From Thermoplasmata archaeon (GTDB lineage Archaea > Thermoplasmatota > Thermoplasmata > Thermoplasmatales > Thermoplasmataceae): DNA of 36,236 nt. Location of the stretch: assembly GCA_021819605.1 (NCBI GenBank), contig JAKAQT010000002.1, positions 1 through 36,236 of the forward strand, given 5' to 3'. Of this stretch, positions 15,835 to 33,310 are shown piece after piece (within the stretch, counting starts at the first letter, position 1; each line of letters opens with the position of its first letter). Both the position numbers and the translations under genes were made by a program. The notes under the pieces are model-generated. The model was not told the origin of the DNA. It saw only the letters and a list, made by a program, of their open reading frames with translations, and did no database searches.

Positions 15835-17053
15835 ATGAATGATGGCAGTCAATTTCGAAACCTATCCATGGCAAGGTTTGCAAGCCTCATCGCACCTGTG
15901 CCTGCGGATATCGATGTAATTTTCAGGCTCGCCGACCACAGATCATTCCTGGCAGCTTTCGGCTCTGTAATGATCCTGTCGCTGGTTGCCGAACTCCTGA
16001 TACAGCCATACCTGTCCAGGGCTATAGACCGGTTTAACCGAAAAAAAAATACAGATGATCAATCAGGCGGTGTTCTCCATCTCGACTCTGGCAGCCGGAT
16101 TTGAGATTATCCTGAGGGGGCACTATGAAGTAATACTTCTCATGATGCTCCTCATTATTGAAATTTATTATACCGTTTCATACCAGGTCTATGCTTCAAT
16201 GGCGCAGTCCATGATAGGGAGCAAGGATGCCGGAAATTACAATGGACTTTCGGAGGTACTGGGGCAGACGCCCGTCATCATGGGAGCGTTACTTTCCACA
16301 ATACTCTGGAACGTCGTGCCACTTTCATACATTCTCCTGGCCAGCGGTGCAGCCGGAGTGCCATTATTGCTTCCGCTCGCATATGTCCGTAATGTCTGTT
16401 TACAGTTTCCTGCCCGAAGTTCACCCAGTGCTGGTATTTCCACAGGCCGGAAGATGAGATGGAGCACGGTCCTGTTCATATTCCTGTTTAACATGCCCTA
16501 TGTGGCTGTAGTCTCAGGCAATTACCTTAAACCCATCTTCATAGCTCAACTGCTCAATGGGACACCGGGGACTCTTGCTGAATCCGAAATAATTTATGCC
16601 CTGTCCGCAGTGGCAGCAGGCATTTTGGCTCCGTTGTTAATTAAGAAAATGGGAGAATTCAAGTCCGCCATGATGTTTTCGCTGATCTATGTAGCAGGAA
16701 GCATCCTGATGCCTATGTTTCCAATTATTGCAATATTCTTTCTCTTTCAGGTCAGCCATGGCACGGGAAATGCTGGCAATAGAATATCAAGAAATACACT
16801 TGTCATGCGGAATGTCCCTGCTGAGGAGATTGGGCGTTTCATTGGAAATGTGCACATTCTAGCAGTCATCGCCAGAATATCTTTACTGGTTCTCTACATA
16901 TTAACCATTGAACTGATTGGTGTCCGGATGCTTATGATAATTACGGGATCAATGGTTCTAATTGCAGTTATTGCAGGAACGGCACTTCGGAGATCTAGCA
17001 TAATTCAGGCGGAAAACCTGCGATTGCTTGAAAAGGGGTTATCAGTCCAGTAA
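15835..17053 (+). pseudogene. MFS-type transporter split by a frameshift at an A9 tract (ORFs 15835-16104 and 16055-17053)
   Basis: Frame 1 reads ...LLIQPYLSRAIDRFNRKK; skipping one A at 16041-16049 continues as IQMINQAVFSISTLAAGFEIILRG..., matching the MFS D-R-x-[ND]-R-[KR] loop followed by TM helices. Confidence 0.75.
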
Positions 17054-19732
17054 ACCGGCAAGGCGCATGTCAAGGTCACGCTGAGGCTTCCTGGAAAGAA
17101 GCGACTGAATGAACATTTCCGGATCTTCCCGGAACTGCACCACCTTCAGTATCCCTTCCTTCACTGTCCGGGACTGCCTGTTCAGATCACTGAATTCCCT
17201 GATGATAAGATCGGTTTCAGGCGTCCCGGAATTAACCGGTCCCCTGAGATTCACATAGGCTATTGCTCCCTGGATGCTGGCAGGATCTGTGCCCGTTGAG
17301 GCTGAAAAAAGCCTGCAGTATGACCATACTTGCTGCCAGTATTCGCTCTTTATATCTCTACCGGTCTTGTAATCCAGGATAAGATAGGAACTCCCGTCCT
17401 GAGCAGAAAAAACCGCATCTATAGTTCCCTTCATGATCATGTCAGGCGGTATATGATCCATGCCAAGAAACTCCCTGAGTGGAATTGAAAATCGGGCCTC
17501 GGTTTTCCACGGTACTCTGGTATATTTACCCGGCATACTGCTGATGATCTGATCAAGGGCTCCTATCATTCCGGATAATGCATCCGGGATTTCGCTGGTA
17601 TGGACCCTGCCGGTTGTGTATTGTTCAGCAAGGCGATGAAATTCAATGCCAGTAGCAGCGCTTTGCCTCTGCTCCCTTATTCCCAGTATATTTTCATGCA
17701 GGAAGTCCCACGGCGAAGCTGCCAGCTTTACCAGTGATGGCGAAAGTTCAGTAAGATTTGAAAAATACTCTGAGATTCTCCTCCTGATCCAGTCCCTGTC
17801 TTCTCTTATTATTTTAGCTGCGTCCTCTGTCCTCCCATTGATAAACATGGAATATGCCGCATCATATTTTCTCACAAGACTAAAATCTGATTGCGTATGA
17901 TTCTCCACAATCTGGCATATTTTATCATCGAAGTAGAATTCCTTCCATGTTCTGCGATCTGTAACAACACTGAGCCTCTCCCTTGCCCGCGTCGTTGCGA
18001 CGTAGTCAATCCTGTAGGGTTCGTCACGAAGGTCAGATTCCACGTCTGTCCCGGTCATGCCAGATACAATGGCATATGACAGCAGATCCAGGAACTTCAA
18101 CCTCCCGTTTGTGCGTGAAGGAATATAAATTACATTATGGAACTCCTGTCCTTTTGCCTTGTGCACAGTCAGTATATTGATTTGAGATTTCTTCAGGTCT
18201 TCCTCCTGATCGAGAACAGACATGTCCAGGAAATCCAGATAATCCTTTGGCTGAAAGTCAGTGACATTGTTCTGATAGTCAGCGGAGGCAGAATAAATGG
18301 AGGAGGCAGCAGAGAAGTATTCCTGTCCCAGGGAAACAGATATGGGGATTATGACCTGATCCAGTGCTGTACGCACAACCTCTATGCCTGTGTTCATTCC
18401 ACGCAGGTCTGAGATGCGGGACGGGATGATGGATTCGTCCTGATTATTATTAAGTTTCTCTGAAATTTCCACAGCCTCATGGAATGCCAGTCCGGAAAAT
18501 GGTGTGAAAAGGCCCCTCTTAAGATAATCTCTGCCGGGCAGGAGAATACATCTTAAGAAGGACATTACCTCACTCAGTTGATCCGATGGACGGCCCTTGG
18601 TCAGTGTTGAGGAGAACTGCAGTCCAGTGCTGGAAAGAAGTTTATGGATCCTTGCAAGCTGTGTGTTTGTCCTGACAATAATTGCATAATCTCCTGCAAT
18701 TCCTCTGTTCAGCATATCAGTAAGTGCATTAACTGCAGCGCTTTCCGGCTCATCAGCAGTAATTACCGTAACCTTCTCGCCGTCTCCCTTCTCCGGATTA
18801 TGGAAGCCCTGAAGTTCGCTGGAAATTGAGCGATCTGAAATCCTTGACTCCAGCAGCCTTGATGAATAGTTCAGAATATTGTTGGTGCTTCTCCAGTTGA
18901 TTTTCTTCGTCACCTTGCTGTAGCCCTGCCGGGAAATGAAATCGTTGAACTGGGACAGGCTTCCGCCCTGGAATCCGAATATGGACTGCTTCCTGTCCCC
19001 CACAAAGAATCTCCTTGTTGCAATCCTCTCTGCAAGCGCAACCTGTTCCCTGCTCAGGTCCTGAAACTCATCCACAAGAACATAATCCTTCACCGGAGCA
19101 TCTATCTGGATCAGGTAATTGTGCAGGATGTCATTGTAATCAACCATTCCATGGCCTTTCTTGTAATCCTCATAGAATGCGTAAATTTCTGTGAAATCAT
19201 GCAGAAGGCGTTCATAGCCATCCATCCCGATCTGATCATCTTCCTGGTCCACCAGCTTTTCCCTTATAATTTCCAGAACCTGCTCTGAGTTTATGTCCTG
19301 TGGATAAATCCCGAAGCTCTTGATGTACCTGATCATGTTTTCGAACCGTGGCACAATATCTGATTTCACATAATCATCTGAATAATTGAATGTCTTCAGC
19401 TCCCTGAGTTTTCTGAAAATTAAGAAGCGGAGAAGTGAATTTGAAACAAGATCGTCAGGAGTGCTCCCCTCATCCATTCTGAATGCCAGGCTGTGCATGG
19501 TGCCTATGTCCATTAAATAGATGGATTCGAGAAGTACGGGATCGCCAGCAGCCATCTGCATTATCCTATCAAACATCTCTCTGGCTGCCCTGTTTGTGAA
19601 CGTAAGGCAGGCGATCCTCTGGCCGGGTACCCCGTTCTTCAGCAGGCCAATAACAGTGTCTGCAATCTCCCATGTCTTTCCTGTTCCGGGGTTTGCAACG
19701 ACCAGTACATCACTGTCCGGTGGAAGAAGCAT
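17042..19732 (-). CDS. UvrD/Rep-family helicase fused to a RecB-type PD-(D/E)XK nuclease
   Basis: Walker A ANPGTGKTWE, ACLTFTNRAAREM, Walker B DYVLVDEFQD, GDRKQSIFGFQG, INILTVHKAKGQEFHNV, YVATTRARERL; C-terminal HRLAE, GTIDAVF, LILDYKTGR, QVWSYC nuclease motifs. Confidence 0.92.
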   Translation of the reverse strand: MLLPPDSDVLVVANPGTGKTWEIADTVIGLLKNGVPGQRIACLTFTNRAAREMFDRIMQMAAGDPVLLESIYLMDIGTMHSLAFRMDEGSTPDDLVSNSLLRFLIFRKLRELKTFNYSDDYVKSDIVPRFENMIRYIKSFGIYPQDINSEQVLEIIREKLVDQEDDQIGMDGYERLLHDFTEIYAFYEDYKKGHGMVDYNDILHNYLIQIDAPVKDYVLVDEFQDLSREQVALAERIATRRFFVGDRKQSIFGFQGGSLSQFNDFISRQGYSKVTKKINWRSTNNILNYSSRLLESRISDRSISSELQGFHNPEKGDGEKVTVITADEPESAAVNALTDMLNRGIAGDYAIIVRTNTQLARIHKLLSSTGLQFSSTLTKGRPSDQLSEVMSFLRCILLPGRDYLKRGLFTPFSGLAFHEAVEISEKLNNNQDESIIPSRISDLRGMNTGIEVVRTALDQVIIPISVSLGQEYFSAASSIYSASADYQNNVTDFQPKDYLDFLDMSVLDQEEDLKKSQINILTVHKAKGQEFHNVIYIPSRTNGRLKFLDLLSYAIVSGMTGTDVESDLRDEPYRIDYVATTRARERLSVVTDRRTWKEFYFDDKICQIVENHTQSDFSLVRKYDAAYSMFINGRTEDAAKIIREDRDWIRRRISEYFSNLTELSPSLVKLAASPWDFLHENILGIREQRQSAATGIEFHRLAEQYTTGRVHTSEIPDALSGMIGALDQIISSMPGKYTRVPWKTEARFSIPLREFLGMDHIPPDMIMKGTIDAVFSAQDGSSYLILDYKTGRDIKSEYWQQVWSYCRLFSASTGTDPASIQGAIAYVNLRGPVNSGTPETDLIIREFSDLNRQSRTVKEGILKVVQFREDPEMFIQSLLSRKPQRDLDMRLAGLLD

Positions 19733-24992: not shown

Positions 24993-25769
24993 TCACTTTT
25001 TCCATTTCGGCCGGTTTGGTGTTGATGATCTCCTTCCGGCGGTCATTGCCAGAAATATCATGAATGCAATCACAATGGCGGCCACATAGTAGATCCAGTT
25101 ATAGTTTGGCGGTTTGCCATAGTAGAAGTGCGTTGTGTAAACAGCAGCAGAGCCGTCCACCCTGATTGCTTTGTTGTTTACTGAAACTGTCAGTGTATGT
25201 TCTCCATTTGTCAGGTACGGGTTCACGTAGGTGAAATTAACTGTCACCGAAGCTCCGGCTGGAACAAATGTGGCCACCGTACTTCCCACGAACTGATTGT
25301 CCACGGAGAAATCAACGGTCAGGTTATGTATGCCAGATGAGCCCGTGTTTTTCACAACAGCATAGAAGTATATTGGTTCAATGACGTGAACGCTGAAACT
25401 CTGCTGGCTGGTGACATATTTGGACCCGAAGTTTGCTCCAGATATTATGTTGATGTACAGTATCTGTGTCGCATTAGGGGCCCTCAGTGAAACCCTGAAA
25501 TCCGGATTTGATGCCTGGAAATTGTGATAGGAGAAACTCGGGCTGGCACCAGTAAGATTCTCACCGGAGAGATACACAGTAACTGTATAATTGGAAAAAC
25601 CGTTGGTGTCATTGACATAAACTGTGAAATTCTGGTTAGTTGTCACATATGTAGGAATGGTCACCGAAGGTGTCATTGGCGGGACATATGATGCGTGTGA
25701 CACCCCCACTACCGAGAATGCAAGAAACGCCATCATTACAACGGTAAGGATTGAAAAATACTTCCTCAT
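24993..25769 (-). CDS. Secreted/membrane-anchored Ig-like (CARDB/NEW3-type) protein overlapping aglB
   Basis: N-terminal signal peptide (MRKYFSILTVVMMAFLAFSVVGVSHA), beta-sandwich sequence NTGSSGIHNLTVDFSVDNQFVGSTVATFVPAGASVTVNFTY, C-terminal TM YYVAAIVIAFMIFLAMTAGRR plus basic tail. ATGA overlap with aglB stop. Confidence 0.8.
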   Translation of the reverse strand: MRKYFSILTVVMMAFLAFSVVGVSHASYVPPMTPSVTIPTYVTTNQNFTVYVNDTNGFSNYTVTVYLSGENLTGASPSFSYHNFQASNPDFRVSLRAPNATQILYINIISGANFGSKYVTSQQSFSVHVIEPIYFYAVVKNTGSSGIHNLTVDFSVDNQFVGSTVATFVPAGASVTVNFTYVNPYLTNGEHTLTVSVNNKAIRVDGSAAVYTTHFYYGKPPNYNWIYYVAAIVIAFMIFLAMTAGRRSSTPNRPKWKK

Positions 25770-28700
25770 TTCTTGCGCCCCCTGTATCCTGCCACGAATA
25801 CTCCTGCCACCACGGCCACAGCTATAACTACGAGACCTATGATGAGGCTTTCATACGGATCACCAGTGTAATTCCCTATAACTCCAGGCCCTACAGGATA
25901 TGGAGAAACCGATGATAGAGACGGAGTGGCAGCTGAGACTGTTATGTTTTCATAGTGACCTGCTCCTCTGGTTGATAGTTCGAAACTGAAACTTTTGATT
26001 ACGTTTGATGTTGAAGATGGCGTGAGTACTATGTATATAACCTTAGACTGCCCAAATGGTACCGTTATGTTTGCGTACACGTTGCTTGACAGATTTCTTG
26101 ATATGTAAGTACCGTTATAAACGAACATTGAAGACCATCCGTAGTCAGCTGGAGAAGTTCCAACCGAGGAGTTTGTGCTGATGCTCAGATTAACCGCAAT
26201 CGGGGAATTCCCTGTATTTTTTATGGTTATTGGAAGATACAGCTCAGTTCCGTTTGTCATTGAGGATATATTCTGAACAACAGTGTAGTTGGACACCCTC
26301 TGGATGTTTACCGGAACAGTAACAGTAGTATTGCCTCCGGCATATTTGAGAAGCACAGGTATGTTCTCCCTGCCGTAGGGTATGCTGCCCGTCAGCGTTG
26401 CATTCATGCTCAGATTGGCAGACTGACCTGGCTTGAGGTCCACACCGCTCACGTTGAACTTAACCGCCCATGAAGAACTGCCTGAACTGAGCGTGATATT
26501 TTCCAGTGAGTTTCCCTGATTTGTCAGCGTTACATTTCCACTCATTGTTCCTCCGGGGAGTATACTCCGGATTGGCGGTGTGAGCTTCATGTTGAACGCA
26601 TGGTATACTACAAGCTGGAGACTTATCTGCAGCGATCCAGGAGAGTTGACGTATATTGTCTCAGACTGGGAATAGCTTAGGCTGATTACAGTCCCGTTGG
26701 AGGCTTCGGTTGTGCTAGAAAGTGCCGAAGAAAACGTGTAATTGCCCCTTGGGAGAATAACGCTGCCAACACTTGAATTGAATGCATAGACATTTGTGCC
26801 GATTGAGGCGGTTACAAGGTGGTTTATAATGGATGTGCCAAGGTTCACGGTAACGTATTCCCTGAAAGCCGGCACCAGAGTTTCGTTCTGGTAAACAACA
26901 TCAGCGAATCCCGGCACAGTTACGGAGCCAAAGTAGCCTGAGCCTGTGGCATTGTCAAGTATGTATGCAGTATAGTTTCCGCTGGGTACAGTCATGCTAT
27001 AGTAGCCCAGATAGTTGGAGTTCCCTTTGGCGATGACGTCCCCGGTAGAGTTAAGTAACATTACGGAAGCATATGGGGCAGGAGACCCACCATATGCAAG
27101 GTACCCACGAAGTGTAGAATAAACCTCAGACTGGCTGACCTTGAGATTCAATATCATATTCCCTGTAAGATCAAAAGATGACGTCCCATTTATGAGATAT
27201 GACCCAGTATTATTCGATGTGTGCTGTATATAGCTCACAGAATATGTTCCCACCGGCAAAGATACATTTCCTGACGGGAACGACATATTTAGATTATCTG
27301 CGCTGATGAAGTAAGTTCCTGATGCCACTCCCAGAGAGTTGGTTAGAGAAACCGTATTATAAGCTTTAAAAGCCGGTTCAAACCTGGCGTTCCCGTTAAC
27401 CTTCAGCGTTGATAAATAAACGCCCCTGGTAGAGTTGAATGCATATAAAGTGTAGGTGGCATCCGGTGTATGCTGTATATTGTTTACAGCAATTCCGGTT
27501 GAATTGAAGAGGAAGACCTCTGTAGAATTCTCAACTGTAATGTCGGAATACGCTGATGAATTGATTGATACAGCAGACGGCATGCCTGTTACCACACTCA
27601 TGAATGCTGGTGTGGAAACTATCTCATAGTTCTTCTGCGAAATATTCAGTAGATATACAGAAGGTTGCAGCTTAACATTCGCAAATCCAGTGGCGGAAGT
27701 GTAGTTAAAAACACCGTTATTACCGACGAATGACACAGTTGTGCCTGATGGCAGGAAGTTATCTCCCCTGACCTGGATGCTGAATCCTATGGTCCTTGGC
27801 GTAAGAGGTAGGTTAACAGTTCCTGAGGAAGCCTTCGCACTGAAATTGCCAAAGAATGCTCCGGAATAATTCAGATTGGTCATTCCAGATGCGTATGAGG
27901 GGTAGAAGAGTTGAGCATAGCCTTTTACGCCGATTGGCTGGAATGATATTGGCACATTATCATACTGCAGTACAGCCAATCCACTGAATTCAGATGATGA
28001 TGTTGAATAACCTGTTGCAGTGTTGGAATTTATAAATGGAAGAGCAGTTACTGAGAGATTATATTGCAGCGAAAGATTCACGAATGTACTTCTTCCCGTA
28101 TTGAGCTGATACATCCCTGATAGTGTGTTTCCAGTGTATGTTCCAAGTCCCGATACCGTATAGTAACCCTCTGGCACCAGCATGGTAAATGTATGATTAG
28201 TAAGGAACTGGTCCTCCAGAAGAACTGAGCTTGAAAGAATCTCATAGTATCCAGAGTATGCTGATACGCCATGTATATGTGATGTTATGGTGAGATTTCC
28301 CGATGGAACCAATGAAACTGTCATCGTTGTGTTTGTAGTAATCTGAAGTGTGCGCAGGTATGACAGGTTTCCGGATACAGCATAAAGTGTGTATGTGCCA
28401 TACGGTACAAGGGAGGTATAGGTTTTCCCAGCCAAGCGTGACATGCTTAAAGGACTGGCCAGCTGGCCATCATGGTATAACACCACGGAAGTGTTTCCTG
28501 TTGATCCGGCGACGTTCACTGATACCAGGGCTGCAGGTTCAGGGGTGAGATTAACAGATGTGTTTTCATTCCAGTTGTTAAAAGTTACCTTCACGGGATA
28601 GGAGCCTGTGAAATTGCCTGATACCCTTACTTCATAAGTTCCTGGGGTGACAAACAGCTTTGCCACGCCGGTAGAGTTGGATACATTGGATGACCACACC

Positions 28701-31700
28701 ATACCATTGTTTGTGGCGGCTGATAGTGACATTCCCGTTACAGGTTTTCCAGCAACTGTTGTGTTGACGAAGGCCACATCAAATGGTACCTGAATGTTAT
28801 ACACAACATTGCTTCCCAGCGTAACGTTAACCATTTCCACGTTTGCGAAATAATGTCCGCCAGTATACAGGCTTGCTTCATATGAAAGCGGAGGCACATC
28901 TTTCAATGACCAGCTTCCATCCTTCATGGTAAGGTTGTAGGTCAGGTTGTACGTGGAGTTGCGTAAAATTACATTGCCATTGTTTATTGGAGTCGAAATT
29001 ATGGCTTTGCTTCCGCCGTTTGTTACATTAGTCACCTGCTGGTAAGAATAATGGGCAGATCCTGAAACGGTGCTTGATGAGACATTAAGGTTCTCGGTGA
29101 AATAATAATCTGGAAGGCCTGTTGTAGAGTTATAGCCGGTTGTGGTTCTTTCCGCCTGGCTGTTGGAGACTGTTATTGCCCGATCTCCCACGCTGTTAGA
29201 ACCTATGAGATATTGCTGGTTCAGAGTGCCAGTAGAATAAATAAGTGTATCGTTACCTGGAACGGCCATTAATGAATAATCACCCTTGCTGTTTGTTAGA
29301 ACCGTCTGATGAGGTATGCCATACTGATCGAAAATAGTCACCCGTACGTCCGGAACTGGAGCACCATCGGGAGTGGTTACCTTGCCCTGCACTATGGCCC
29401 CCGGGAAATATTTAACTATTGGATCACTGTATGAGAGCATCTGCGACGCTGATGAAAACATGATTACAGTACCATTGTTTTCCTTCTGTAGCTTGTATGC
29501 CTCCTGAAGTGGTATTTCCTTGAAATCATTGGGATGTGCCTGATAGTTCTTGTATGGGTTGTAAAGGCTGTTCTCGTAGACTATCTCGAAGTTGCTCATA
29601 TTCCACGCCGGCATAACCGTATCAGTGGACTGCCCGTAATCAACACCGGGAATTCCATTTGTCTGGCTAACGGCGGACGGAGGATATCCTATTGTGAATC
29701 TGTAAATGGAAGTGTTGTAAAACTGCGGGGTGTACTGGATGTTATATGAAATCGGTATGGCCGTTGCAGACAGGTTGTTGAGTGGGAAAGTCCCGTTTGT
29801 TGTGGTCGCGTAAACATTGTAGTATTCTGTGGGAATAACCTCGCCGCCGGTAGATGTGTAAGATGGGGTGTATGTGAGGTAAGCTGGGGCATAAAATATG
29901 CCAGGATTTGTTGCCGAGCTCGGGAACAGATTGTGATCGATCTGAATGTACCCAATTTTGTAGCCTGTTTCCTGTTCTACACTCTGATACAGGTTAACAA
30001 GAGTGGTTGTTGGGAAATTGTACGATAAGTTGCCCTTCATAAAGGCGTAATAAACGTTGGCAGAAGTTATGGAGCTAATGTACTGTCCATAAACTGCAGG
30101 GCTGGAAAGAACCGTCTGAGTGAACGCCCCCGGGTTCTTGGATGCATTAAGGATAATCTTGTACTCATTTACTCCAAGTGCTGAAATCAGGGTGTTAGTG
30201 ATGTTGCTGCTGAAATGGTCACCGTTCTGCTGGAAGTTAGCCTGGAGATCAATGGCTATGAAAAGGGCAATATCCTGGCTCTGATTCTGTGCCATTAGCA
30301 ATTCGCCCGCTTGCGGTATCCCCTGCTGGAAGTCATCTGCTACTGTGGGATGCTGTCCCTGATAAAGTTCCTGGAAACCATAATCCCACCAACTTACATA
30401 GGCAGGCTTTTCCGTTAATGGAAGATTGGTATCCTGGCTTGACAGCCATGCCAGAGAGAGCGCAATTGGCTGAGTTGCATTATCTATTGGCACCCCAAGT
30501 GCCCCAGCAAATGAGACTGTTGTATTATTGGTTCCCTTCAAAAAGGCTGGAATTGCGCTACCCAGTTGTGTGTTAACCTGTGTAGCAGAGTTGGCTGGAA
30601 CTGAAGCAGAAACCATTGAAAGCCCTGACGGAACAAGAAGCACCAGTGCAATGACCACTACGAATGCTGCCTGCACCCATTTTATATTTCCCTTAATTGA
30701 CTTCCGCACAGAGCCGTATCCAACGTTCTTCCTATTTTTCAGGTCATCTATCCTGGCCATCTTTGCAAAATACATTATTATGGCTCCACCCAGAATGGCG
30801 TAGGCAGGGGCCGCAGTTATGTTAAAACGCGCGGCAGCAAAGCTCATGTAAATTGAAACAAGTGAAAATACCATTATGAAGAGCACTTCTTCTTTACGCT
30901 CTTTCAGGTAGAGATAAACCACATAAATCATACCTGCAATTCCAAAGATGAACTGGGCAACCCCAAATCCTGAGATATACGATCCCAGTGCCGGTGCCTG
31001 AGCCTCTGCTATGGTGGAATAAACTCTTGTCTTGATGAAATAGCCGTCACCACTTATGAGTGTGTGGAACAGAGATGGAGCGAAAAAGTCCATACCAAGT
31101 ATTCCCACTGCTGAAACTACTATCAAAATGGGAATAATGAGTATCCAGGGTCTTCTCCCAATTATGTTTATAACTGCCGAGAATAGTATGATGAGTATCC
31201 CGATCAGCAATTCAGCGTTGTACCATCCGGGGCCTTCTCCGATAGCCTGGTAATAATAGGCCCCCATCGCAAAACCAAGTATGATAAAAAGAGCAAAATA
31301 GAATGTAATGTATCCGGTTGGTCTCTTAAGAATAAGGTTAGCTATGAGCTGGATTACTATGTATATCAGTATAATTGCTTCAATATAGGCATAACCCTGC
31401 CAGGCAAGCATCAGGCCCCCAAGCGAAGCGCCCGCCAGCAAGGCGTACGTGGTTGATTTTCTGTTTTCATGGTAAAAATCCCTGAGTCTGGACGGAAGTG
31501 TCCTGAAATCTTTCAGATTTTCCAGTATTCTTCCCTTTCCGGAATATTTTATAGCCATGGCAAAGAAGTATATTGTGAAAAACGCAAAAATGAGCTCAGG
31601 AGTATGCATCCTGCCACCTGAGAGTATTCCAGCTGAAAGGTTGCTTGGCATGAGTGTATACAGGAACGCAGATATGTAACCCGCCCTCTTACCGAAAAGT

Positions 31701-32131
31701 TCCTTGGTGACGAGGTAAACAGGGATTATGAGAAGTGCACCGAATACTGCATCGAATTCCTCGAAAGCGTAGAAAGCAGCCATCTTTGCCCCAAATATTG
31801 GGGAGAGCACCTCAGCTACAAAGACTAGCATCACGTGGAAGAATGGATTCCTTGGATTGGTTGAACCGAATGGAAAGTTCAGTGCCGGGTCGTGAACAAG
31901 CCAGTGTCCGGTGGAAAGAAAATGGAGTATCAAGTAAAAGTTATAGTAGGGATCGCTTCCTCCTGATGTTGGAAGGGTACTGATCCCACCGCCATTGACA
32001 AATGTTAGTCCCCAGGCAAAATAGTTGGCAAAGAAGAGATAGAATACAAACAGTATTCCAACGACCAGAAAGTCGGTGTGCTTTGCCACCCTTGCCCTTA
32101 AAGTGATATTCTGTTCCAGCTGATTTTCCAT
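25766..32131 (-). CDS. aglB: AglB/STT3-type oligosaccharyltransferase with a very large C-terminal extracellular extension (2121 aa)
   Basis: Multi-TM N-terminus with GSDPYYNFYLI, archaeal TIxE-type TIAEAQAP and catalytic WWDYG (aa 581-585, 30377-30391). From about aa 905: CarboxypepD_reg-like repeats, then NEW3-like domain, C-terminal TM SLIIGLVVIAVAVVAGVFVAGYRGRKK. Confidence 0.92.
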   Translation of the reverse strand: MENQLEQNITLRARVAKHTDFLVVGILFVFYLFFANYFAWGLTFVNGGGISTLPTSGGSDPYYNFYLILHFLSTGHWLVHDPALNFPFGSTNPRNPFFHVMLVFVAEVLSPIFGAKMAAFYAFEEFDAVFGALLIIPVYLVTKELFGKRAGYISAFLYTLMPSNLSAGILSGGRMHTPELIFAFFTIYFFAMAIKYSGKGRILENLKDFRTLPSRLRDFYHENRKSTTYALLAGASLGGLMLAWQGYAYIEAIILIYIVIQLIANLILKRPTGYITFYFALFIILGFAMGAYYYQAIGEGPGWYNAELLIGILIILFSAVINIIGRRPWILIIPILIVVSAVGILGMDFFAPSLFHTLISGDGYFIKTRVYSTIAEAQAPALGSYISGFGVAQFIFGIAGMIYVVYLYLKERKEEVLFIMVFSLVSIYMSFAAARFNITAAPAYAILGGAIIMYFAKMARIDDLKNRKNVGYGSVRKSIKGNIKWVQAAFVVVIALVLLVPSGLSMVSASVPANSATQVNTQLGSAIPAFLKGTNNTTVSFAGALGVPIDNATQPIALSLAWLSSQDTNLPLTEKPAYVSWWDYGFQELYQGQHPTVADDFQQGIPQAGELLMAQNQSQDIALFIAIDLQANFQQNGDHFSSNITNTLISALGVNEYKIILNASKNPGAFTQTVLSSPAVYGQYISSITSANVYYAFMKGNLSYNFPTTTLVNLYQSVEQETGYKIGYIQIDHNLFPSSATNPGIFYAPAYLTYTPSYTSTGGEVIPTEYYNVYATTTNGTFPLNNLSATAIPISYNIQYTPQFYNTSIYRFTIGYPPSAVSQTNGIPGVDYGQSTDTVMPAWNMSNFEIVYENSLYNPYKNYQAHPNDFKEIPLQEAYKLQKENNGTVIMFSSASQMLSYSDPIVKYFPGAIVQGKVTTPDGAPVPDVRVTIFDQYGIPHQTVLTNSKGDYSLMAVPGNDTLIYSTGTLNQQYLIGSNSVGDRAITVSNSQAERTTTGYNSTTGLPDYYFTENLNVSSSTVSGSAHYSYQQVTNVTNGGSKAIISTPINNGNVILRNSTYNLTYNLTMKDGSWSLKDVPPLSYEASLYTGGHYFANVEMVNVTLGSNVVYNIQVPFDVAFVNTTVAGKPVTGMSLSAATNNGMVWSSNVSNSTGVAKLFVTPGTYEVRVSGNFTGSYPVKVTFNNWNENTSVNLTPEPAALVSVNVAGSTGNTSVVLYHDGQLASPLSMSRLAGKTYTSLVPYGTYTLYAVSGNLSYLRTLQITTNTTMTVSLVPSGNLTITSHIHGVSAYSGYYEILSSSVLLEDQFLTNHTFTMLVPEGYYTVSGLGTYTGNTLSGMYQLNTGRSTFVNLSLQYNLSVTALPFINSNTATGYSTSSSEFSGLAVLQYDNVPISFQPIGVKGYAQLFYPSYASGMTNLNYSGAFFGNFSAKASSGTVNLPLTPRTIGFSIQVRGDNFLPSGTTVSFVGNNGVFNYTSATGFANVKLQPSVYLLNISQKNYEIVSTPAFMSVVTGMPSAVSINSSAYSDITVENSTEVFLFNSTGIAVNNIQHTPDATYTLYAFNSTRGVYLSTLKVNGNARFEPAFKAYNTVSLTNSLGVASGTYFISADNLNMSFPSGNVSLPVGTYSVSYIQHTSNNTGSYLINGTSSFDLTGNMILNLKVSQSEVYSTLRGYLAYGGSPAPYASVMLLNSTGDVIAKGNSNYLGYYSMTVPSGNYTAYILDNATGSGYFGSVTVPGFADVVYQNETLVPAFREYVTVNLGTSIINHLVTASIGTNVYAFNSSVGSVILPRGNYTFSSALSSTTEASNGTVISLSYSQSETIYVNSPGSLQISLQLVVYHAFNMKLTPPIRSILPGGTMSGNVTLTNQGNSLENITLSSGSSSWAVKFNVSGVDLKPGQSANLSMNATLTGSIPYGRENIPVLLKYAGGNTTVTVPVNIQRVSNYTVVQNISSMTNGTELYLPITIKNTGNSPIAVNLSISTNSSVGTSPADYGWSSMFVYNGTYISRNLSSNVYANITVPFGQSKVIYIVLTPSSTSNVIKSFSFELSTRGAGHYENITVSAATPSLSSVSPYPVGPGVIGNYTGDPYESLIIGLVVIAVAVVAGVFVAGYRGRKK

Positions 32132-32239
32132 TGGAGTCGTACCTGAAGAGCACTAATGGAAACAATATATAAAAAACTGATCGGAAGATCGTTCCCTGAT
32201 TTTCTTAAAGATAGAATAACAATTTTCTATATCTCGTCC

Positions 32240-33310
32240 ATGCGTATTCAGATACATTTGAACAATGAGGGACGTAAAACTGCCAGGGCGAAAACCATCG
32301 CAAAAATATCCAGGGTAATTGTTAGGGGTGGGTCGTCCGGAGTAACGCAGTCTGAGCTAGAAAGGAAGCTTTCCATCTCCAGAAGTTACTGCTCTGAACT
32401 TGTAAAGTCTCTGGAAGCCCAAGGAAACCTAATGAGAGTTGCAAACGCAAACACATGGAGGATTTATGACAGAAAATTTTATCCAGGTCCAGTTCCGGGG
32501 CTTGTCAGAGTTGGTTTTTTAAGATCGTCTGAATATGTTCCAATTCTTTCCCACATAATAAGGGCAGCCAGAGCAATGGGATCGGAAATCATGCCAATTG
32601 AGTACGATTCAGCCATCAGGGCGCTTGAGGACCTCAGTCATGGTACATTAGAGCTATCCCTTGTACCCACTCTTCCCTCGCTGGATTTTTCTCTTATGAA
32701 CAGGAATACACTCATCCTCATGGGCGTTTCCTCCGGAGGATCAGGCATAATCACATCGGATCATAACTGCAAAGATTGCATCCTTACCTCGGAATCCTCC
32801 ACAATGATATCTCTCGTGATGGAATTCATGAAAGATTACCCCCAAACACAGGTGTTTTTAGATCCACGCTCGGGAATTGAAAACTTCGTCAATGGAAAAT
32901 GCTGCAGTATTGCCATCTGGGAACCTTTCCTGAGTGAGCTTATTTCTGATGGGAAGTATAAGTTGACCCGTACTTATCATGAGGTTCTGGGTGGCTTCCC
33001 ATGCTGTGCCCTTTCGTCAAATATAGAGTTCACCGAAAGGGAAGTTGCAATGGTTCATCTCATCCTCAGGGGATACGTGTCAGACCCCTTAGCACTGAGG
33101 AACACTGATGACTGGTTAAGGTCAGTTGGATACATTGCTAGGGCCACCAGGTGCAGTAGGGAACTCATTGAAAAATCCCTTGCAAGCTATAACTTCAAAG
33201 ATACAACCATCGACCACGATGAAGTCCGAAGGCTTGGGATAAGGATGTCTTCTTCCCAATCTGATAAGATATTTTACAAATTTTCGGGATACTCTGGAAC
33301 TACCCAGTAA
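32240..33310 (+). CDS. wHTH plus type-2 periplasmic-binding-like (NMT1/SsuA-like) domain, putative cytosolic one-component regulator
   Basis: N-terminal HTH (VTQSELERKLSISRSYCSELVKSLEAQGNLMRV) then SBP-like region GLVRVGFLRSSEYVPILSHIIRAARAMGSEIMPIEYDSAIRALEDLSHGTLELSLVPTLP... No signal peptide or TM. Start at ATG 32240 likely; listed start is 32156. Confidence 0.65.
   Translation: MRIQIHLNNEGRKTARAKTIAKISRVIVRGGSSGVTQSELERKLSISRSYCSELVKSLEAQGNLMRVANANTWRIYDRKFYPGPVPGLVRVGFLRSSEYVPILSHIIRAARAMGSEIMPIEYDSAIRALEDLSHGTLELSLVPTLPSLDFSLMNRNTLILMGVSSGGSGIITSDHNCKDCILTSESSTMISLVMEFMKDYPQTQVFLDPRSGIENFVNGKCCSIAIWEPFLSELISDGKYKLTRTYHEVLGGFPCCALSSNIEFTEREVAMVHLILRGYVSDPLALRNTDDWLRSVGYIARATRCSRELIEKSLASYNFKDTTIDHDEVRRLGIRMSSSQSDKIFYKFSGYSGTTQ

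Follow-up and report, generated by a model that had tools for sequence, protein, structure and literature searches.

An AglB homolog of about 2000 residues with an extracellular beta-domain array and a conserved CARDB partner gene is standard in the archaeal class Thermoplasmata

Introduction

AglB is usually regarded as a single-subunit enzyme of about 600–1000 aa. In AglB from Archaeoglobus fulgidus (AfAglB), the metal ligands are Asp47, Asp161, and His163 (PMC8342417). For Thermoplasmatales, models of the Oxyplasma archaellum and the Cuniculiplasma pilus include N-glycans (PMC12448462), so that oligosaccharyltransferase (OST) activity exists in this order. The two species imaged are devoid of an S-layer and display a dense, unordered exterior layer of unidentified protein, about 20 nm thick (PMC12448462). 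All three culture-fluid samples from Picrophilus contained an STT3 subunit, alongside cytosolic proteins (PMC8345856), whose presence makes lysis a possible source.

Here, we describe an aglB locus in a 36,236-nucleotide stretch of DNA from a member of the Thermoplasmataceae (contig JAKAQT010000002.1; hereafter, the window) and its counterparts in related genomes.

Gene organization and domain architecture

The giant AglB of the window is encoded by one uninterrupted frame, which comprises an STT3/AglB core (aa 1 to about 905), an all-beta array, and a transmembrane (TM) helix (Table 1). The core was matched by Pfam STT3 (aa 59–455, E = 8e-7) and by TIGR04154 (aa 39–750, E = 2.9e-51), the latter scoring 175 bits, below its cut-off of 450. 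AF2 models were obtained for aa 1–1200 (pLDDT 88) and aa 1000–2121 (pLDDT 87.8); the second of these shows successive beta domains and, at its end, a single TM helix.

A preliminary description of this DNA had reported the 2121-aa frame without its strand, together with an extracellular beta extension beyond about aa 905 and a terminal TM anchor. All three are borne out by the frame itself, the CarboxypepD_reg match, and the AF2 models. Of the CarboxypepD_reg-like repeats reported there, one is a clear domain, while further stretches at 28547–28762 and 26918–27091 are weak. Matches to the proposed NEW3-like domain are also weak: a sialidase NEW3 region (profile, E = 7e-4) and, in one relative, NPCBM_assoc (E = 0.003).

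Table 1. Features of the giant aglB locus in the window
Feature	Coordinates	Strand	Evidence and remarks
Partner gene, 258 aa	24993..25769	minus	Pfam CARDB, E 2.9e-6; ATGA overlap with aglB
Giant AglB/STT3 open reading frame, 2121 aa	25766..32131	minus	ATG start
Multi-span TM catalytic domain, aa 1–520	30572..32131	minus	AF2 model, hydrophobic segments
First metal-motif Asp60 (EL1), equivalent to AfAglB Asp47	31952..31954	minus	Alignment; invariant
Second metal motif, altered, GGRMHTPE, aa 172–179	31595..31618	minus	Alignment
TIAE motif (TIXE of EL5), aa 373–376	31004..31015	minus	T373 and E376 invariant in relatives
Globular OST domain with WWDYG, aa 521–905	29417..30571	minus	Motif alignment, AF2 model
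WWDYG motif, aa 581–585	30377..30391	minus	Alignment
Extracellular all-beta array, N-x-S/T-rich, aa 906–2090	25862..29416	minus	AF2, sequon count, Pfam
CarboxypepD_reg domain, aa 914–968	29228..29392	minus	Pfam, E 3.7e-14
NEW3/FixG_C-like Ig domains preceding TM	26250..26600 (approximate)	minus	Profile match; FixG_C/NPCBM_assoc in relatives
C-terminal TM anchor, aa 2091–2121	25769..25861	minus	AF2 (helix aa 2092–2120), hydrophobic segments

In close pairs of genomes, dN/dS was 0.06–0.11 in the extension versus 0.01–0.03 in the core. The frame is coding and constrained, and the extension, the fastest-evolving part of the protein, is under purifying selection. A search for a second such gene in the same genome gave none, and giant AglB was the single oligosaccharyltransferase found there.

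The gap between the aglB start (32131) and a divergent HTH gene (32156–33310) is just 24 bases, which leaves a very short promoter region. The same strand as aglB encodes, at 17042–19732, an 896-aa UvrD-like helicase fused to a PD-(D/E)XK nuclease domain.

Distribution in the class and phylum

Of 250 class genomes, 238 gave homologs of giant AglB, and the frames listed are mostly single and about 2050–2300 aa long. Among the carriers are Ferroplasma acidarmanus and clone ASS_A1, both with complete genomes, as well as Thermoplasma and Cuniculiplasma assemblies. The size of the protein, initially taken as unusual, is thus the standard architecture of the class, an outcome that the preliminary description had itself named as refuting its proposal, and the claim to novelty is reduced accordingly. 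This standard emerges from computation; in the open-access literature we found no published description of the giant form, AglB being simply listed there for these organisms.

In the phylum as a whole, AglB-core frames measure about 926 aa, about 1200–1430 aa, 2050–2740 aa, and up to about 3000–3300 aa. Forms of about 3200 aa occur in relatives that possibly belong to Poseidoniia/Marine Group II (loci L172–L176), with a subtilase-like gene downstream in both loci whose downstream frame was read. A tree of 93 cores, with the short forms as root, shows the family of the window organism as a single clade and, for the genome families, the grouping that vertical descent predicts. Acidiplasma-type proteins of about 1430–1450 aa (L109, L031–L033, L107, L108) lack the equivalent of window aa ~1295–1941, i.e., about 650 aa, and retain the C-terminal domains and the TM helix.

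The preliminary description had named an assembly join of two genes as an alternative. Two broken copies would fit such an artefact or a recent fusion: aglB of E-plasma consists, in a draft assembly, of two frames offset by a frame change of one base (L105, L205), and the Thermogymnomonas copy is split into several. The E-plasma break, however, is one frame change within an otherwise complete homolog, and single intact frames are present in most genomes of the class, complete single-contig ones included. This rules out a join of two genes, to which we assign a negligible probability. Programmed frameshifting in E-plasma was also considered and rejected, as the single frame change is confined to one draft assembly and the relatives are intact.

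The size data bear as well on the idea of the array as a passive brush of glycoprotein, under loose constraint and contributing bulk only. Its evolution, faster than that of the core, agrees with this idea, as do the size variation across the phylum and the deletion tolerated in Acidiplasma-type genomes. The dN/dS range of the extension in close pairs, the near-constant length in most of the class, and the retention of both the C-terminal TM helix and the partner gene speak against it, and we consider a mere brush improbable.

Catalytic core and altered metal site

The best PDB match of the AF2 core model was AfAglB (7e9s; E = 1.7e-25, TM-score 0.67 on target). The model predicts the OST fold, namely a GT-C type multi-span TM domain followed by a globular domain. 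T373, E376, and W581–G585 were invariant among 74 relatives. The STT3/AglB motifs had been called canonical beforehand; this holds for TIAE and WWDYG but not for the second DXD (DXD/DXE/DHH) motif, where alignment places R174 at the position of AfAglB Asp161 and H176 at that of His163. We therefore refer to the protein as an AglB homolog and variant, not as a canonical AglB. By-eye inspection of the region downstream of WWDYG gave no clear candidate for the DK/MI motif of the Ser/Thr pocket.

Many members of the class have ADHD as the second metal motif, and several other families vary there; AfAglB has DHH. In the window's family, R-x-H-T-P-E was present in 62 of 62 sequences with a readable second motif; the residue two positions before Arg is Asp in 48 of these (DGRxHTPE) and Gly in the other 14, including the window sequence. 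This is an unusual natural change at the metal-binding site of an OST. It makes activity in the window's own clade less than certain.

Conserved CARDB partner gene

Directly downstream of aglB in the window lies a gene that the preliminary description had left out. An apparent N-terminal signal sequence and a C-terminal TM helix flank the CARDB domain of its product. Among 199 loci with sufficient sequence, a set that includes some repeat copies from the same genome, 173 have a homolog immediately after aglB; outside the class, it is present in only 1 of 20 loci tested. The partner profile matched 116 of 120 class genomes. This gene pair suggests that AglB and the CARDB protein probably form one complex, although gene adjacency is no proof of a complex.

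The possibility that the partner is a copy of the AglB C-terminus was rejected, the match being weak (50 columns, probability 60%). PTO0604, a CARDB protein of the Picrophilus secretome, was rejected as a partner because the locus tags of this protein and of the STT3 gene, PTO0786, lie far apart.

Sequon content of the array and partner

The extension had been described as rich in N-x-S/T sequons, which the counts confirm: aa 906–2075 contain 55, versus 25.9 ± 4.2 in 2000 shuffles (maximum, 38). In the partner proteins of the window's family, 442 sequons were counted versus 231 expected. Enrichment in the extracellular part of AglB amounts to 2.05 in this family; the remainder of the order reaches 2.30, and other members of the class 1.97. 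The array is plausibly glycosylated by its own catalytic domain, as had been proposed. A GT2-family glycosyltransferase, possibly a glycan-assembly gene, is encoded on the same contig (6806–8035, minus strand).

Homologs with lost catalytic motifs in methanogens

One family of the class carries mcrA and is methanogenic; by inference, it corresponds to Methanomassiliicoccales. WWDYG, the TIXE Glu, and the second metal motif are all lost from giant AglB (1818–2544 aa) in 12 of the 13 genomes examined from this first methanogen family, while the EL1 Asp is kept in 4 of these 12 proteins. WWDYG and the TIXE Glu are also lost in genome G160 of a second methanogen family. G160 is placed beside an intact relative in the tree and apart from the first group, which indicates a separate loss. 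The loci concerned (L208, L211–L218, L220, L221, L223, and L224) encode putative pseudo-oligosaccharyltransferases. A search for a second STT3 in these genomes found none.

The two separate motif-lost clades keep the long array as well as the CARDB gene. Sequon enrichment of the extracellular part falls to 1.18 in the motif-lost lineages (bootstrap 1.07–1.30), which supports the view that the sequons are used in the other lineages; the partner proteins of this group have 34 sequons versus 27 expected (1.26-fold). Motif loss and sequon loss do not coincide perfectly, since enrichment is only 1.32 in the two methanogen AglB proteins that keep WWDYG. The motif-lost lineages evolve faster, with dN/dS mostly 0.2–0.7, so part of the array retention could represent slow decay. 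The simplest reading of these sequences is that N-glycosylation via giant AglB was lost in these methanogens and the surface protein was kept. Survival of the array after loss of the active site suggests that it has a job of its own.

Possible role of the array

We propose the following arrangement. The N-terminal ~905 aa would act as the AglB enzyme and move glycans onto Asn of N-x-S/T. The remaining ~1200 aa would extend from the membrane as a string of small beta domains and come back to it via the C-terminal TM helix, and the protein would be made together with the small CARDB membrane protein of the adjacent gene. The array, N-glycosylated itself, would serve structurally at the cell face, linked to the enzyme without depending on it, and may belong to the disordered protein coat of cells that have no S-layer. 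A rough estimate of about 13 beta domains of about 4 nm each, anchored at both ends, gives a hairpin of about 25 nm, a value that indicates compatibility only. A structural role as a scaffold or as the S-layer-like module suggested in the preliminary description is likewise compatible with the retention of the array after motif loss and with the shell of about 20 nm (PMC12448462). Substrate scaffolding, also suggested there, is conjectural.

We give an even chance to the reading that the OST is part of a two-gene surface assembly in which the array is structural beyond catalysis and possibly a component of the coat. It draws on the fold and motifs, the architecture shared through the class, the single gene in this genome, the CARDB neighbor, the sequon enrichment, the retention of array and partner after motif loss, the published N-glycans and exterior layer (PMC12448462), and the Picrophilus STT3 subunit in culture fluid (PMC8345856). 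Points against it are the limits of gene adjacency, the faster evolution of the motif-lost lineages, the possible lysis in the Picrophilus cultures, the altered second metal motif, and the shortened array with which Acidiplasma-type relatives manage.

Alternatively, the array might mainly serve the enzyme, by capturing or presenting secretory substrates or by shielding the OST from acid, as may be done by the accessory subunits of eukaryotic OST or by arrays linked to the translocon. Its physical fusion to the enzyme, the conserved partner gene, and a similarity to NOMO would agree with this. A profile built from the array had eukaryotic NOMO as its best PDB-sequence match (E = 1.6e-16, two significant stretches), and in a Pfam scan of seven members of the extension alignment, two relatives exceed the cut-off for NOMO_5th. 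CarboxypepD_reg-type domains are, however, common in other proteins of these archaea, so the match is a lead as to how the array might work, perhaps at the superfamily level. A single-sequence search with another family member gave no NOMO match. For these reasons, and because the array is fused to AglB, membership in NOMO was not adopted. The 50 best Foldseek matches of the array in the PDB were generic multi-domain Ig-like chains only, and its assignment as a eukaryotic OST accessory subunit was rejected. These matches argue against an enzyme-serving array, as do its rank as the fastest-evolving part and the persistence of array and partner where the catalytic motifs are gone. We hold this alternative to be a minority possibility, although a better one than the brush.

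A more far-reaching version of the surface-assembly reading is that giant AglB and the CARDB protein make up a coat assembly with its own glycosylating enzyme built in, and that in the methanogens the enzyme is dead and the coat protein persists as a pseudo-oligosaccharyltransferase. We advance it tentatively, with about the same weight as the enzyme-serving array. If true, it would give a molecular identity to part of the exterior layer of archaea without an S-layer; the protein is a concrete candidate for part of the shell of Thermoplasmatales, whose cells live at very low pH.

A whole archaeal class carries AglB as a surface protein of about 2000 aa with a fixed partner gene. It is of interest for this partner, for the evidence from sequons, for the change in the metal motif, and for the methanogen versions that have lost catalytic motifs. 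The surface protein that outlives its active site in some close relatives separates the two roles and provides natural controls for both.

Comparison with known systems

AfAglB-L (868 aa; PDB 7e9s, 3waj) shares with the window protein the OST fold, the EL1 Asp, TIAE, WWDYG, and a His at the His163 position. It differs in the second metal motif, D161-x-H163, where the window protein has R174 at the Asp161 position, and it lacks both the ~1200-aa array and the C-terminal TM anchor. Eukaryotic multi-subunit OST has the catalytic STT3 fold in common with giant AglB, with membrane-anchored lumenal domains near it, but its accessory subunits are absent from the 50 best structural matches of the array. 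NOMO, a component of the BOS complex of the eukaryotic multipass translocon, is likewise a prealbumin/CarboxypepD_reg-like chain on the lumenal/extracellular face; it stands alone, whereas the array described here is fused to an enzyme. Archaeal S-layer proteins are also large, sequon-rich extracellular arrays of beta domains with a TM anchor. No S-layer was seen in the two Thermoplasmatales species imaged (PMC12448462), and the array of giant AglB, unlike these proteins, is fused to an enzyme.
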